A stretch of DNA of 64,000 nt, from positions 209,501-273,500 of the forward strand of contig NZ_CP076443.1 of NCBI RefSeq assembly GCF_018866345.1. Reading direction: 5' to 3'. This DNA is from Gemella sp. zg-570 (GTDB lineage Bacteria > Bacillota > Bacilli > Staphylococcales > Gemellaceae). Below are positions 55,597 to 60,870 of the stretch, piece after piece; positions within the stretch are counted from its first letter, which is position 1, and every line of letters begins with the position of its first letter. The position numbers and the translations under genes were made by a program. The notes beneath the pieces are model-generated. The model was not told where the DNA came from. It did no database searches and was given only the letters and a program-made list of their open reading frames with translations.

Positions 55597-56398
55597 AAAT
55601 AATAAAGATTTCAATTTGAATAAATTTAAAAAACAGGAAAATTCATACAAAATTTCAGATGAAAGTAGCGAAAAAGAAATTATAGCTGGACGTAATAGCA
55701 TTTTGGAAGCCATAAATGCTGGACGAGAAATAAATAAAATTCTTTTTCAAGAGGGGATAGAAAAGGGGCGTTTAAAAAGTATTTTTGCCATAGCAAATGA
55801 AAAGAAAATTATTTGCCAAGAAGTCCCTAAAAGAAAGCTGGATAATTTAACTACTGAACGTCATCAGGGTCTTGTCGCTTTTGTCGCTCCCTATAACTAC
55901 TATGAATTAGATGAAATGCTAAATTCTTTGGGTACTATTGATAAGGATACTACCCTATTACTACTAGACCATATCGAAGATCCGCATAATCTGGGTGCTA
56001 TTATTAGGAGTGCAGAAGCGAGTGGAATAAAGGGTGTAATTATCCCAAAACGTAGGGCGGCAGTAGTAAGTCAAACCGTCGTTAAATCATCTGCCGGAGC
56101 AATAGAATATATGCCAGTTGCCAGGGTGGGTAATCTTTTGGACAGTATAAATAAGTTAAAGGAAAAAGGATTTTGGATTGCCGGCACAAGCCTAGGAAAA
56201 AATTCCGAAAATTATACAAAGATAGCAAGAGATGTTCCCCTAGTAATAGTCATTGGTAATGAGGGCTACGGAATTAGCAAGAGTGTAAGCGAGGCTTGTG
56301 ATTTTCTTTATCACCTGCCAATGCTGGGCAAAACACAAAGTCTTAATGCGTCAGTAGCAGCTGGAATTATAATGTATGAACGTATCAGAAAAGAATAA
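55565..56398 (+). CDS. rlmB: 23S rRNA (guanosine-2'-O-)-methyltransferase RlmB
   Basis: A 277-residue SpoU (TrmH) family methyltransferase. A basic N-terminal extension (about 35 residues) precedes the substrate-binding domain (IAGRNSILEAINAGREINKI) and the knotted SAM domain with motifs LLLLDHIEDPHNLGAIIRSA, VVIVIGNEGYGIS and PMLGKTQSLNASVAAGI. An ATG at 55571 is also possible; AATGAATATGAG gives no strong ribosome binding site, in line with coupled translation from mrnC. In Bacillus rae1 follows; here a terminator follows. Confidence 0.93.
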   Translation: MNMRNQEKKFKNNKDFNLNKFKKQENSYKISDESSEKEIIAGRNSILEAINAGREINKILFQEGIEKGRLKSIFAIANEKKIICQEVPKRKLDNLTTERHQGLVAFVAPYNYYELDEMLNSLGTIDKDTTLLLLDHIEDPHNLGAIIRSAEASGIKGVIIPKRRAAVVSQTVVKSSAGAIEYMPVARVGNLLDSINKLKEKGFWIAGTSLGKNSENYTKIARDVPLVIVIGNEGYGISKSVSEACDFLYHLPMLGKTQSLNASVAAGIIMYERIRKE

Positions 56399-56429
56399 AA
56401 TCTTGTAACTTTTGTTACAAGATTTTTTA
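56398..56429 (+). terminator. terminator after rlmB
   Basis: AAATCTTGTAAC and GTTACAAGATTT form a perfect stem over TTTT, followed by six T. Confidence 0.92.
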
Positions 56430-56795
56430 TTTTACCTAGTAAAATAAATTTATACAAAAAGAAAAAAACTATAAAACAAATTCAAATAAAAATAATTAGA
56501 AAAAAAATTATTAAATAATTTCAAATAAAATATAAAATCAAAAATCAAAATAATACAAGCTAAAAAAATTAAAACTAGAAGCCAAACAAAAACTATAAAA
56601 CAAGCTCAAAAAATTAAAATAAAATAAGTCAAGTTGTAAAAATCAAAACCAGCCCCACAAAAAACTATACCAAATAAAATATTTAAAAAAATAAAATTAA
56701 ACTCAAAACAATTATAAAAACAAGAAAAAATACATAGACCTAACAAATATAAATATAGTATAATAAAACTAAAAAAACACAAAAAGGAACCCAAG
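56430..56795 (+). other. gene-free, T-poor stretch before the restriction-modification gene
   Basis: A long A-rich segment with repeated ACTATAAAACAA-type strings (near 56469 and 56590) and almost no coding potential on the plus strand. TATAAT at 56759-56764 is a possible -10 for the next gene. Its base composition matches the restriction-modification gene and not rlmB, so the island boundary probably lies just after the rlmB terminator. Confidence 0.6.
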
Positions 56796-58838
56796 ATGGC
56801 AAAAATAAAATCAATAGAACCCAACATAGCAGACCTAGTAAACGGCTGGCTAAAAAACTACAAGCTAGACTACAAACTCGAACAAGAAAGCCTAAATGCA
56901 GAAATAGACAAGGCACTAGACGAATACAAATCAAAAAATGGAGGAAGTGGAGGCAACAGACCTGATGCCAAACTCCTACTACAAGACAAAAACCTAAACT
57001 ACTACCCCGTCCTAATAGAATACAAAGGCTACAAAGACAAACTCATAAAACTAGACGAAAACGGAAATGTAGACAACAGAAACAGCAAAAACTCCCCCAA
57101 CTACAAAAACATAAACGACTATGCAGTAAACGGAGCAGTCCACTACGCCAATGCAATCCTACACTACACAAGCTACACCCAAGTAATAGCTATAGGAGTA
57201 ACAGGCTATAAAAACGACAAAGAAGAAATCAAACACACAATAGGAGTCTACTACGTATCAAAAGAAAACTTTGGAATAGGTCAAGAAATCGGAAAATACA
57301 CAGACCTATCATTTTTAAGAAAAGAAAACTTTGACGACTTCATAAAAAAAATAAGTGAACTATCCCTAACAACAGAAGAACTAGAAGCCCTAAAAGACAA
57401 AAGAGAAAAAGAAATCAATGCCAGTCTAGTAAAACTAAACAACGACATATACGCAAGCGAAAAAGGACTTAGCGAAAACGACAGAGTATACCTAGTATCA
57501 GCGAGTATAATGGCAAACCTAGGAATACCTGGAGAAGTAAGCCCACTAGAAAAATCAGACCTAAAATCATCACAAGAAGAAGGCAACACAGACGGAGAAA
57601 TCATAATAAGAAAAATAAAATCCTTCCTAAAAAAGAAAAACCTACCCTATACAAAACAAAAATTAATAGTAAGAAGTTTAGAAAACACCCTACTTTCAGA
57701 CAACATAAACAAGGCAGTAAACGGAGAAAGCCAACTAAAAAGAATATTTGCAAAAATAATAGACGACTTAGGCATCTACTACAAAATAGGACTAACAACA
57801 GACTTCACAGGAAAACTATTTAATGAAATGTACTCTTGGTTAGGATTTACCCAAGACAAACTAAACGATGTAGTCCTAACACCCTCTTATGTAGCAAACC
57901 TACTCGTAAAACTAGCCAGAGTAGATAAAGACAGCTACGTTTGGGACTTTGCGACAGGTTCAGCCGGACTACTAGTAGCCGCAATGAACGAAATGATAAT
58001 AGACGCCAAAGAAAAAATAAAATCACCAGCCGAACTAGAACAAAAAATACTCCAAATAAAAGCCGAACAACTACTAGGACTAGAAGTCCTATCAAACATC
58101 TACATGCTAGCCATACTAAACATGATACTAATGGGAGATGGTAGCTCAAACATACTAAACAAAGACTCACTAACAGACTTTGACGGCAAATACGGCTTTG
58201 GCAAAACAGAAGAAACCTTCCCAGCCACAGCCTTTATCCTAAACCCACCCTACTCAGCCCAAGGCAACGGCATGGTCTTTGTAGAAAAAGCCTTGTCAAT
58301 GATGAACAAAGGCTATGCGGCAATCATCATACAAAACTCAGCAGGAAGTGGCAAGGCAAAAGAAATAAACCAAAAAATACTAGAAAAAAACACCCTACTA
58401 GCCAGCATAAAAATGCCAATAGACCTATTTGTCGGCAAATCAAGCGTCCAAACCAACATATACGTCTTTAGAGTAGGAGAAAGACACCAAAAAGATGAAA
58501 TAGTAAAATTCATAGACTTTTCAAATGACGGCTACACAAGAAGCAACAGAAAAAAAGCAAGCAACAACCTAAGAGATACCGACAGAGCAAAAGAAAGATA
58601 CGAAGAAATAACAAACCTAGTCCGCTTTGGCAAAAGCAAACTAAATATCTTTACAGAAAAAGAATACTATGAAGGACATATCGACCCAAACAATGGAGCA
58701 GACTGGAACCAGTCAGCCCCAATAGACACAAGACCAAAACTAGAAGACTTTAAAAAAACCGTGGCAGATTATTTGGCTTGGGAAGTAGCAAACCTTATAA
58801 AAAATACAGACCAGGAGGAAGCAAAATCAAAAAAATAA
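56796..58838 (+). CDS. restriction-modification protein (nuclease plus N6-adenine methyltransferase, BcgI-like type IIB/IIG)
   Basis: A 680-residue protein. The N-terminal part has a PD-(D/E)XK nuclease pattern: RPD57 then LIEYK with Glu75 and Lys77. A helical HsdM-like segment follows (LTPSYVANLLVKLA), then methyltransferase motif I WDFATGSAGLL (about 382-392) and motif IV NPPY (about 483-486), the adenine-N6 type. With a separate specificity gene after it, the layout matches BcgI-like systems, where one subunit cuts and methylates. Codon use is strikingly poor in T. AAAAAGGA precedes ATG 56796. Its last codons form a likely -1 frameshift site into the specificity gene. Confidence 0.85.
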   Translation: MAKIKSIEPNIADLVNGWLKNYKLDYKLEQESLNAEIDKALDEYKSKNGGSGGNRPDAKLLLQDKNLNYYPVLIEYKGYKDKLIKLDENGNVDNRNSKNSPNYKNINDYAVNGAVHYANAILHYTSYTQVIAIGVTGYKNDKEEIKHTIGVYYVSKENFGIGQEIGKYTDLSFLRKENFDDFIKKISELSLTTEELEALKDKREKEINASLVKLNNDIYASEKGLSENDRVYLVSASIMANLGIPGEVSPLEKSDLKSSQEEGNTDGEIIIRKIKSFLKKKNLPYTKQKLIVRSLENTLLSDNINKAVNGESQLKRIFAKIIDDLGIYYKIGLTTDFTGKLFNEMYSWLGFTQDKLNDVVLTPSYVANLLVKLARVDKDSYVWDFATGSAGLLVAAMNEMIIDAKEKIKSPAELEQKILQIKAEQLLGLEVLSNIYMLAILNMILMGDGSSNILNKDSLTDFDGKYGFGKTEETFPATAFILNPPYSAQGNGMVFVEKALSMMNKGYAAIIIQNSAGSGKAKEINQKILEKNTLLASIKMPIDLFVGKSSVQTNIYVFRVGERHQKDEIVKFIDFSNDGYTRSNRKKASNNLRDTDRAKERYEEITNLVRFGKSKLNIFTEKEYYEGHIDPNNGADWNQSAPIDTRPKLEDFKKTVADYLAWEVANLIKNTDQEEAKSKK

Positions 58839-59995
58839 AAGCCTCACTGGATAAAAAACTAAAAAATATTCAGTGGGGCGAGTATAGGATTGGGGATTTG
58901 TTTGAGGTTAAATCATCGAAAAAAATTTTTCACGCTAACAATATAGAGATTATGGAAGAAAAAATATTAGATAGTTATCCTTATGTTGTTAGAAAAACTG
59001 GAGAAAATGGAATTAGAGGGTATATTAAACAAAGTGAAGAATTTTTAAATCCTAAAAATACATTATCTTTTGCACAAGACACATTCACGGTTTTTTACCA
59101 AAAGGAAAAATATTTTACAGGAAATAATGTTAAAATACTTGTGCCTAAATTTTCTGAATTTAATGAAAGTATTGGAATATTCTTTGTAGGAATATTTAAA
59201 CATTTATTAAGTAATTTTAGCTGGGGGACAGGCTCTACTAAAGAATGGATAAATTCATTTATTCTAAAACTCCCAATCAAAAATGGAGAAATTGATTTTG
59301 AATTTATGGACGCTTATATAAGCGAGCTAGAAGAGGAGCGTATAAGCGAGCTAGCCGCTTACTTGACAGTAAGCGGCTTGGATAACTATAAGTTATCCAC
59401 TCTTGAGCGTGAGGCACTAGACCTTGTCTTAGCAGATAAACTTACTTGGGCGGAGTTTAGGATTGGAGATTTGTTTGAGAAAATCAAAACAAAAAATTTA
59501 AAAATGAAAGTAGGAGATTTATCTCCTAGAAAGACAGAAAAATTCAATCTTCCAGTTTTAACCGCAGGAATTGAAAATCAAGGACTTAATAACTACGCTC
59601 CTAAAGCAAATGCAACTATATTAAAAAATGTAATTTCAATATCTGCTAATGGAGCAAATACTGGTGCAACATTTTATCAAAGTAAAGAATTTACAGTGTT
59701 ACAAGATGCTTATGCAATATCTTGCAAGTTAGATTTTTCACTTAATGACAATCATAATTTGTTTTTAACAGGTGCAATTAGGAAATCTATATATGGTAAT
59801 TTTGCTTGGACAGATAAAGCAGGTTGGGAAAAAGTAAAAAAAGAATTTATCCAACTCCCAACCAAAAACGGTGAAATTGATTTTGAATTTATAAATACCC
59901 TAATATCAGCCGTACAGAAGTTAGTTATTAAAGACGTGGTACTTTACGCTGATAAAAAAATTCAAGCAACTAAAGAAGTTGTGAAGAGGAAGTAA
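58778..59995 (+). CDS. restriction-modification specificity subunit (HsdS-like, two recognition domains)
   Basis: Two HsdS-like halves: each begins WGEYRIGDLFEV or WAEFRIGDLFEK and ends KNGEIDFEF followed by a helix, so there are two target-recognition domains reading a bipartite DNA site. The open frame, -1 relative to the upstream gene, starts at TTG 58778, which has no ribosome binding site. A perfect AGGAGG at 58813 is followed seven nt later by ATC, not ATG, and the next ATG/GTG/TTG codon (58898) lies inside the first domain. Synthesis by -1 frameshifting from the upstream gene, or by a rare AUC start, is therefore suspected. Composition differs sharply from the partner gene. Confidence 0.85.
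   Translation: MGSSKPYKKYRPGGSKIKKIKASLDKKLKNIQWGEYRIGDLFEVKSSKKIFHANNIEIMEEKILDSYPYVVRKTGENGIRGYIKQSEEFLNPKNTLSFAQDTFTVFYQKEKYFTGNNVKILVPKFSEFNESIGIFFVGIFKHLLSNFSWGTGSTKEWINSFILKLPIKNGEIDFEFMDAYISELEEERISELAAYLTVSGLDNYKLSTLEREALDLVLADKLTWAEFRIGDLFEKIKTKNLKMKVGDLSPRKTEKFNLPVLTAGIENQGLNNYAPKANATILKNVISISANGANTGATFYQSKEFTVLQDAYAISCKLDFSLNDNHNLFLTGAIRKSIYGNFAWTDKAGWEKVKKEFIQLPTKNGEIDFEFINTLISAVQKLVIKDVVLYADKKIQATKEVVKRK
58813..58879 (+). promoter_or_regulatory. candidate programmed -1 ribosomal frameshift signal
   Basis: Shine-Dalgarno-like AGGAGG (58813-58818), 10-nt spacing, slippery A_AAA_AAA (58829-58835) in the zero frame of the upstream gene, stop TAA (58836-58838), then from 58841 a stem GCCTCACTG (58841-58849) with CAGTGGGGC (58871-58879), one wobble, 21-nt loop. 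All parts and spacings resemble the E. coli dnaX site. Frameshifting would give a 1066-residue fusion. Confidence 0.6.
58886..58906 (+). repeat. 5' recognition-domain repeat, copy 1
   Basis: AGGATTGGGGATTTGTTTGAG, with a copy at 59459-59479 differing at one base. It marks the start of each HsdS half. Confidence 0.8.
59288..59307 (+). repeat. 3' recognition-domain repeat, copy 1
   Basis: GAAATTGATTTTGAATTTAT, an exact copy at 59873-59892. Upstream similarity extends the pair to about 38 nt with three differences. Confidence 0.85.
59317..59354 (+). repeat. short tandem repeat in the central region of the specificity gene
   Basis: TATAAGCGAGCTAG at 59317-59330 and again at 59341-59354, a period of 24 nt (8 codons) that encodes a repeated ISEL. 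Confidence 0.75.
59354..59398 (+). repeat. two adjacent perfect inverted repeats inside the specificity gene
   Basis: GCCGCTTACT-TGAC-AGTAAGCGGC (59354-59377) and GGATAACT-ATA-AGTTATCC (59380-59398), separated by two bases, in the linker between the recognition domains. Confidence 0.8.
59459..59479 (+). repeat. 5' recognition-domain repeat, copy 2
   Basis: AGGATTGGAGATTTGTTTGAG, partner of 58886-58906. Confidence 0.8.
59873..59892 (+). repeat. 3' recognition-domain repeat, copy 2
   Basis: Exact copy of the 20-nt repeat at 59288-59307. Confidence 0.85.
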
Positions 59996-60015
59996 AAAAT
60001 ATAAGGAGATAAAAT

Positions 60016-60870
60016 ATGAATAATGAAATAAAATTATTTGAGGGCAATAAGATACGTTCGATTTGGGATAGGGACAAAGAAGACTGGTATTTTAGCATAA
60101 TTGATGTTGTCGCAGTTTTGACGGAGAGTAAAGATGCTGGAGCTTATTGGAGAAAATTAAAACAAAGATTAAAAGAAGAAGCTAGCGAGGTCGTGACAAA
60201 TTGTCACGCACTGAAATTAAAGTCGCATAAAGACGGTAAAATGTATAAAACTGACGTTGCCGATATGCAAGGGATTTTCCGTATCATACAATCCATTCCA
60301 TCTCCAAAAGCTGAACCATTTAAGATGTGGCTAGCCCAAGTAGGAAAAGAAAGAATTGATGAAATAATTGACCCGGAACTAACAATCGACAGAGCCTTAG
60401 AAACTTATCTAAAAAAAGGCTATACAAGAGAATGGATTAACCAAAGACTACAAGCTATTCAAGTTAGAAAAGAATTAACTGATACTTGGCAAGACCACGG
60501 AGTAAGAGAGGGTAGAGAGTATGCAATTCTTACAAATGAAATTACTAAGGCTTGGACAGGTATGACAACAAGAGAGTACAAAGATTACAAGGGACTAAAA
60601 AAACAAAACCTTAGAGATAATATGTCTACACTTGAACTTGTATTAAATATGCTAGCAGAAGCTACAACAACAGAACTTGCCAATGCAACCAACCCCCAAG
60701 GCTTAGAAGAAAATAAAAAAGTTGCAAAACGTGGTGGCTCTATTGCAGGTAATGCTAGAAAAGAAATTGAAGAAGAAACAGGGCAAGCTGTAATAACATC
60801 AAAAAATGCTATTGATTTTGGAAAATTGATTGGTGATGTAACAAAATCAATTTCAGAAGATAAAAAATAA
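60016..60870 (+). CDS. DinD-like protein (BRO-N/P-antirepressor family)
   Basis: A 284-residue protein. The N-terminal BRO-like domain shows IRSIWDRDKEDWYFSIIDVV, then YWRKLKQRLKEE. The C-terminal part has the DinD-type GGSIAGNARKEIEEETGQ. E. coli DinD is damage-inducible and binds RecA filaments; relatives are often found next to restriction-modification genes, which suggests a link with DNA breaks. AAGGAGATAAAAT precedes ATG 60016, 20 nt after the specificity gene, so it is likely in the same operon. Base composition is normal for the window, unlike the restriction-modification gene. Confidence 0.85.
   Translation: MNNEIKLFEGNKIRSIWDRDKEDWYFSIIDVVAVLTESKDAGAYWRKLKQRLKEEASEVVTNCHALKLKSHKDGKMYKTDVADMQGIFRIIQSIPSPKAEPFKMWLAQVGKERIDEIIDPELTIDRALETYLKKGYTREWINQRLQAIQVRKELTDTWQDHGVREGREYAILTNEITKAWTGMTTREYKDYKGLKKQNLRDNMSTLELVLNMLAEATTTELANATNPQGLEENKKVAKRGGSIAGNARKEIEEETGQAVITSKNAIDFGKLIGDVTKSISEDKK

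Follow-up and report, generated by a model that had tools for sequence, protein, structure and literature searches.

The window analysed here, a 64,000-nucleotide stretch of the Gemella sp. zg-570 genome (contig NZ_CP076443.1, positions 209,501 to 273,500), carries a restriction-modification system in two parts, an upstream gene for a nuclease-methyltransferase (RM) and a downstream specificity (S) part that lies in the -1 frame relative to it. From comparison with related loci, the junction of the two is very probably a site of programmed -1 ribosomal frameshifting, and the fuller explanation, a -1 frameshift signal that yields RM alone as well as an RM-S fusion, is one we hold with high confidence. 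On the same comparative grounds, we regard it as demonstrated that a slippery heptamer, a downstream stem, the -1 frame, and the missing S start are all kept by selection, and we infer that ribosomes slip there at a useful rate. A frameshift at this site had been proposed in an initial annotation, and the interpretation is supported by the conservation of heptamer, frame, and stem among relatives, and moreover by the loss of both heptamer and stem where RM and S are fused in frame.

The junction in the window

The genes and the elements of the junction, all on the + strand, are the following:

56796..58838, + strand: RM gene, 680 aa (open reading frame; PADLOC PDLC03616, Type IIG, E 1.1e-246)
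58813..58818, + strand: AGGAGG, a Shine-Dalgarno (SD)-like element within the RM coding sequence, the heptamer lying 10 nt on (read from the sequence)
58829..58835, + strand: slippery heptamer A_AAA_AAA (read from the sequence); most relatives have G_GGA_AAA or G_GGA_AAG
58836..58838, + strand: RM stop TAA in frame 0, adjoining the heptamer (read from the sequence)
58835..59995, + strand: S part, 386 aa, read in the -1 frame, with two target-recognition domains and no usable canonical start (Methylase_S match and structural model)
58841..58853, + strand: 5' arm of the stimulatory stem, GCCUCACUGGAUA, beginning 5 nt past the heptamer (folding and relatives)
58867..58879, + strand: 3' arm of the stimulatory stem, UAUUCAGUGGGGC, which encodes the conserved xWGE motif of S (folding and relatives)
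56796..59995, + strand: predicted RM-S product of a -1 frameshift, 1066 aa, with the putative frame change at 58835

Direct reading of the RM 3' end (TCA AAA AAA TAA) bears out the original description of an AGGAGG exactly 10 nt upstream of A_AAA_AAA, with TAA following at once, and the sizes of 680 and 1066 residues given for RM and the predicted fusion agree with the arithmetic (680 + 386 = 1066 aa). The stem does start 5 nt after the heptamer, as had been stated, although it comprises 13 bp including two G-U pairs (58841-58853 with 58867-58879) rather than 9 bp with one wobble. Folding of this stem gave -19.5 kcal/mol (z -7.8), and none of 200 dinucleotide shuffles folded as well. Because the stem lies in the S coding sequence, we also used a recoding control, in which the S peptide is kept and codons follow each gene's own usage; here, the native stem gave -18.9 kcal/mol against a mean of -4.0 kcal/mol, with none of 500 synonymous recodings equal to it. 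As likewise described, S sits in the -1 frame without a usable ATG, GTG, or TTG after the AGGAGG, and the S-frame codon at normal spacing from that element is ATC (58826). Between the preceding in-frame stop and a point 45 nt past the heptamer, the sole canonical start in the S frame is a TTG at 58778, 51 nt 5' of the heptamer.

In E. coli dnaX (tau/gamma), the frameshift signal consists of an upstream SD, a tandem slippery heptamer, and a stem about 5 nt downstream, and the window shows the same geometry. The likeness is one of mechanism only, as the host gene is RM rather than a member of the dnaX family. Moreover, the -1 product of dnaX meets an early stop and is the shorter one, while here it is the frame-0 product that ends at once, and the predicted -1 product is longer and gains DNA-recognition domains. 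The dnaX-like A_AAA_AAA signal of the initial annotation holds for the window, whereas heptamers of the family are mostly G_GGA_AAR.

As a mechanism, we propose that ribosomes on RM would pause at the heptamer, aided by the stem that begins 5 nt downstream and, in many hosts, also by the SD-like element lying some 10 nt upstream. The P- and A-site tRNAs would then slip back one base, re-pairing from GGA AAR to GGG AAA or, in the window, from AAA AAA to AAA AAA. Slipped ribosomes would enter S and produce the RM-S fusion and those that fail to slip would stop at once and release RM alone, so that the frameshift may set a fixed ratio of subunits.

Conservation among relatives and natural losses of the signal

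RM relatives were gathered by RM protein similarity from genomes, viral contigs, plasmids, and phages, and identical junctions were treated as one locus. This gave 89 distinct loci, the window included, at an RM identity of about 70% or above; the counts draw on the 80 best of the 192 relatives reported by the scan plus other searches. The lowest full-length RM identity in the set is 70%, and in one locus (L107) RM is only partial (74% over 133 residues). In this comparison of homologous loci, which had been suggested with the initial annotation, the heptamer is found in frame 0 at the RM end with S in the -1 frame at 85 of the 89, and the stem is conserved as well; the exceptions are L031, where the heptamer is lost, and the in-frame fusions L063, L075, and L080. 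Since 85 close loci share it, chance is excluded for the arrangement in the window, and single odd loci, though not 85, could be artefacts of assembly errors. Three further junctions bring the number to 88 for the heptamer counts, and these stand outside the 85 of 89 because RM in L172 is only 35-40% identical and because the pattern that found L136 and L137 includes the junction itself.

According to the organism names of the records, the loci belong to 11 phyla (Bacillota, Bacteroidota, Pseudomonadota, Campylobacterota, Fusobacteriota, Spirochaetota, Lentisphaerota, Deferribacterota, Chloroflexota, Cyanobacteriota, and Altimarinota), single assignments among which may be wrong, as many records are metagenome bins. 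Carriers also include a plasmid and phages, as well as Ruminococcus bicirculans and Gilliamella, and when the system of the E. coli phage PhiR12_3 was searched against 5426 complete E. coli genomes, 29 matched, with 80% or more of the query covered in 22. Whereas the RM proteins are 69-89% identical to that of the window (34 aligned), the S parts are merely 27-43% identical (23 aligned), with the first 17 residues, counted from the first codon after the slip, sharing a consensus in 24 S parts. Judged by these identities, the frameshift cassette is kept while the recognition domains behind it turn over.

Among the 88 junctions, the heptamer is G_GGA_AAA in 44, G_GGA_AAG in 40, and A_AAA_AAA in four, and it stands directly 5' of the frame-0 stop in 81. 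In the first set of loci, GGA is the glycine codon of the heptamer without exception (76 of 76), as against 1171 of the 3658 glycine codons in the same genes. The codon preceding this glycine encodes L, S, E, P, M, Q, or A, yet ends in G in 84 of 88 junctions, the remaining four being the A_AAA_AAA loci. With GGA and the preceding third base both fixed, selection acts on the nucleotides of the heptamer, not on the residues. In the window and its nearest kin, A_AAA replaces G_GGA and the heptamer is still slippery, and parsimony on the RM tree (a quick tree of 83 rows) counted 15 changes of heptamer type. We also considered transcriptional slippage, whereby RNA polymerase would add or drop an A in the A run and thus give rise to fusion-coding mRNAs. 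While the seven A's in the window fit this, as does the statement that longer A runs are slippage-prone (PMC3711429; here and below, what is credited to a PMC accession refers to parts of that source), 81 of 85 loci have no run at the site longer than 3 or 4 bases, a run of 7 being confined to four, and polymerase slippage is not expected to need a stem; hence we consider this mechanism extremely improbable.

For the stem, the 76 in-register loci were aligned (alignment A2), leaving out L047, L052, L054, L059, L065, L066, and L069, which were tested singly by recoding (L054 and L065 again over 80 nt), while L084 and L087 are too short for stem tests. RNAalifold gave 12 pairs and -19.7 kcal/mol for the alignment, in which 97.7% of the stem cells are paired, as compared with 34-49% in slid controls, and 57 cells at six pairs are altered on both sides in a compensatory manner. 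Against synonymous recodings, the stems of 83 loci fold at a mean of -18.6 versus -7.4 kcal/mol, at a mean z of -4.1, and for 75 of them no more than 1 in 100 recodings is as stable as the native stem. L054 and L065 have another S peptide and also another stem, of 12-15 bp with a longer loop, though the geometry is kept (z -4.5 and -4.7 over 80 nt). A downstream structure kept by covariation, which in bacterial -1 frameshift signals lies at about 5-8 nt, is thus found here.

As for the start of S, the S frame was read from the point where it opens up to 45 nt beyond the heptamer, and over this stretch 43 of 85 loci have no ATG, GTG, or TTG, and 68 have no ATG. An SD-like word of at least 4 nt occurs 6-22 nt 5' of the heptamer in 52 of 85 loci, compared with 8% of 1700 control windows from the same genes. 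As read off the list of loci rather than counted, this element seems scarcer outside Bacillota, and the stem would seem to be the general stimulator. In one of two E. coli genomes inspected, RefSeq begins S 69 nt past the RM end, and in the other it labels the first S piece as partial; such annotation is what a start-less gene would get.

An AGGAGG within the RM coding sequence could instead serve internal initiation, with S made separately from a non-standard codon (ATC at 58826, 7 nt after the AGGAGG) and coupled to RM termination. In IS911, initiation reportedly takes place at an AUU, and the same SD is said to stimulate frameshifting too. The combination of AUU-mediated initiation and -1 frameshifting in IS911 is also cited in the reference list of PMC4066793, and ATT occupies the corresponding position in 6 of 85 loci. 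However, just 5' of the heptamer 27 of the 85 have the codon CCT, 22 have CTT, three have a TGA stop, and only the window has ATC, and S opens after the slip with ATA in 41 loci and GTA in 34. Moreover, internal initiation leaves the heptamer unexplained, as well as a stem beyond the needs of S coding, and we regard it as very unlikely.

Natural controls for the frameshift signal are given by the three in-frame RM-S fusions, the only ones among the 89 close loci and each with one recognition domain. In L075 and L080, RM reads in frame into this single domain (site TTGAAAAAG), and here the stem is gone (z +0.5 and +0.6), even though the L075 peptide (DALLNEKLKNVKWGEY) is near that of the frameshift loci. 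L063 has a different peptide, no heptamer, and no stem (z +0.9). On the RM tree, the in-frame fusions are nested in the frameshift clade at two places, with L063 being independent. Starts of distant relatives were judged by eye and seven of the loci then tested, and in these ordinary-ATG relatives (L003, L099, L100, L108, L142, L144, and L145) no such stem was found (z -1.1 to +2.0), with none of 14 tests significant, two windows per locus being used in the true S frame. As both fusions and ordinary-start relatives lack the stem, stem and heptamer track the need for a frame change, not the peptide.

These controls also bear on the reading as a plain gene pair, in which S would start at a TTG or elsewhere and the heptamer and stem would be by-products of a conserved peptide or of mRNA stability. 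There is indeed the TTG at 58778 in the window, some ATG, GTG, or TTG in range at 42 of 85 loci, and an ordinary overlapping or nearby ATG for S in several distant relatives. The S-frame starts nevertheless share no common place, the glycine codon and the third base before it are fixed beyond what the residues need, and the peptide cannot explain a stem that L075 and L080 lose while retaining the peptide. A plain gene pair, therefore, is most improbable.

Evidence weighing against the frameshift reading

Several observations count against frameshifting as set out above, or against its generality. The one-domain in-frame fusions number only three and come from two origins. Among the five loci with RM at 35-51% identity, heptamer and stem occur only in L172 (Pseudomonadota); L099 and L100 start S ordinarily with ATG, L208 apparently does too, and L095 has no S after RM. 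In fact, most of the less similar relatives have ordinary starts and no stem, L099 and L100 (43-45%) as well as several at 25-30%. Homologues with an ordinary ATG and neither heptamer nor stem, which the initial annotation had named as telling against itself, thus do exist among less similar systems, whereas at about 70% RM identity and above the opposite is found. Within the close set, L031 has lost the heptamer (TTG GAA AAG) and kept the stem sequence, and in L034, L039, L098, and L107 the TGA stop creates an S-frame ATG just past the heptamer, on account of which a coupled start is possible there. The conservation of AGGAGG that the initial annotation looked for is likewise partial, with the 52 loci that have an SD-like element set against 33 of 85 that do not.

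The S part after the slip spans 335-412 residues, and is therefore long enough for two recognition domains, in all frameshift loci whose S frame does not run into the end of a contig, save for eight with a short S frame. These include L015 and L067, and S is broken in L032, L042, L052, L059, L068, and L088, where the remainder lies in another frame or past a stop. With respect to the heptamer itself, G_GGA_AAG is counted among the efficient ones in E. coli, whereas G_GGA_AAA is called inefficient there in the introduction of the same paper and lies outside its 18 selected motifs, even though its section 18 groups G_GGA_AAA with more efficient insertion sequence (IS) element motifs (PMC4066793).

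We further noticed that the choice between the two glycine-containing heptamers goes with the tRNA-Lys complement, a CUU-type tRNA-Lys pattern being matched in the genomes of 25 of 39 G_GGA_AAA loci and 8 of 33 G_GGA_AAG loci (Fisher p 0.0009; 72 loci), an association that correction for descent nonetheless removes (6 pairs, p 0.25) and that we keep only as a lead. Such an association would be expected if AAG, to slip, needs reading by tRNA-UUU, and codon bias does not account for it. The window's own genome has no match to the tRNA-Lys-CUU pattern.

Architecture, stoichiometry, and relation to known systems

The RM protein is laid out as an N-terminal PD-(D/E)xK-like nuclease (RPD...IEYKG, residues 55-78), a helical region, and an N6-adenine methyltransferase (DFATGSAG and NPPY), with the PD...E-Y-K nuclease-like residues and NPPY being invariant or nearly so across 83 RM proteins of the clade. 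In RM, the sole Pfam hits were N6_Mtase and a sub-threshold VRR_NUC, and in S there was a Methylase_S match in two stretches. A sequence search of the Protein Data Bank returned no hit for either at E 0.001. For the S model (predicted local distance difference test, pLDDT, 87), Type I S subunits were the top Foldseek matches and BsaXI S ranked tenth, and for the middling RM model (pLDDT 73) Type I M chains came first with BsaXI and BpuSI next, at modest TM-scores of 0.3-0.6 for the two models.

By its sequence, the system shares with BcgI and other Type IIB enzymes (BsaXI being the solved one) a nuclease and an N6-methyltransferase in one RM chain without an ATP motor, and an S with two recognition domains. 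There, S is made as a separate subunit from a start of its own, while in the window it lacks a usable start and is predicted to be joined to part of the RM chains. The single chains of AloI, CjeI, and TstI (RM-S1-S2), which combine RM with a two-domain S, resemble the predicted fusion, though there every chain is fused, at 1 RM to 2 domains, while here RM and S lie in two frames and the predicted free RM would restore 2:2. The fusions L075, L080, and L063, in turn, have the layout of HaeIV (single-chain, one recognition domain, homodimer), from which the window and the frameshift loci differ in having two recognition domains and a frame change.

We suggest that RM and RM-S would assemble as RM/RM-S, with two RM domains and two recognition domains. 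This would equal the 2RM:1S of BcgI (PMC3874165, PMC4081073), and BsaXI is similarly (RM)2S (PMC11997821). The frameshift might then be kept because a permanent fusion to a two-domain S would give one RM per two recognition domains, and the arrangement offers an answer to a printed puzzle, the action of the single-chain enzymes AloI and CjeI at 1 RM:2 domains having been termed a mystery (PMC3874165). As TstI is a homotetramer acting on two sites (PMC4081073), single-chain enzymes therefore have other ways out. There are also precedents for fusion: HsdM and HsdS of EcoKI, whose genes overlap by 1 nt, are active in vivo when joined by engineering, and the purified fusion requires added free HsdM (PMC3510504), although EcoKI S has its own start with translational coupling and the fusion is man-made. 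Fused M-S and M-half-S of a Staphylococcus Type I system are active as well (PMC6158711). By analogy, the BcgI, BsaXI, and HsdM-HsdS precedents make the RM/RM-S reading attractive, none of them being proof, and a role of the frameshift in this stoichiometry is, we think, likely.

Frameshifting may, on the other hand, be real and serve another role, such as assembly in cis, a low S dosage that delays restriction in a new host, or the avoidance of pairing with a foreign M. The presence of the system on a plasmid and phages and in many phyla would suit this, as would the fast divergence of S relative to RM, but the one-domain in-frame fusions and the 2RM:1S of BcgI and BsaXI suit stoichiometry more simply, and we regard such a role as unlikely. 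Returning to stoichiometry, it is reasonably probable that this is a Type IIB-like clade, spread over the 11 named phyla, a plasmid, and phages, which is run by -1 frameshifting and makes an asymmetric enzyme of RM and RM-S, and so represents a fourth Type IIB architecture, next to those of BcgI (2RM + S), AloI (RM-S1-S2), and HaeIV (2 RM-S1). In that event, RM and RM-S would both come from one cistron, and with the same measure of confidence, there would be one two-domain reader per two catalytic chains, and the lineages with a one-domain S would fuse it in frame.

If this is true, it would be, to our knowledge, the first defence system with subunit stoichiometry set by frameshifting. The mechanism would be of a known kind and, as far as we have seen, its use in this RM family and this layout is new. 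Slippery heptamers where two adjacent open reading frames join are also found in IS3-type transposases and magnesium chelatase (GeneTack), the former with stimulatory hairpins and the latter with natural in-frame fusions among its relatives. The GeneTack survey covered 146 clusters selected by seven A-rich heptamers (PMC3711429), and G_GGA_AAR would therefore be missed. No restriction-modification family is named in the parts consulted of PMC3711429, PMC4066793, and PMC5009743, and among the titles and abstract openings listed in literature searches there was no case of restriction-modification frameshifting, a cluster being possible in Sharma et al. 2011 or in supplementary tables. Were frameshifting shown, a widespread and horizontally moving immune system would rely on recoding, its specificity gene would stand mis-annotated, and both specificity prediction and the cloning of such systems would have to retain the junction. 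The loci moreover add a compact, conserved frameshift cassette with natural loss controls.

Directly after S in the window lies a gene for a BRO-N/DinD-like protein (60016-60870; PADLOC candidate PDC-S13, E 6.6e-140). As a part of the system it was rejected, having matched only the two loci of its own genome and one other among the loci then in hand.

Among the distant relatives, L095 is a viral contig in which the RM C-terminus is about 51% identical and is followed by a terminator-like hairpin in place of S. A Lactobacillus gasseri plasmid (L100:1-5699) carries two tandem RM-S pairs, of which the first S is short and both are annotated with their own starts. The system at L208, 46-48% identical, is in the same genome as fusion L080, its RM being split across two frames mid-gene and its S standing in its own frame.

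The window's genome (1.56 Mb, one contig) also holds a second copy of RM and S, 3.66 kb long and 97.4% identical by blastn (G000:C1:155137-158785, that is L203:1638-5286), which matches window positions 56371-60000. RM of this copy is broken by frame changes at about residues 175-290, while its junction and S frame are intact.

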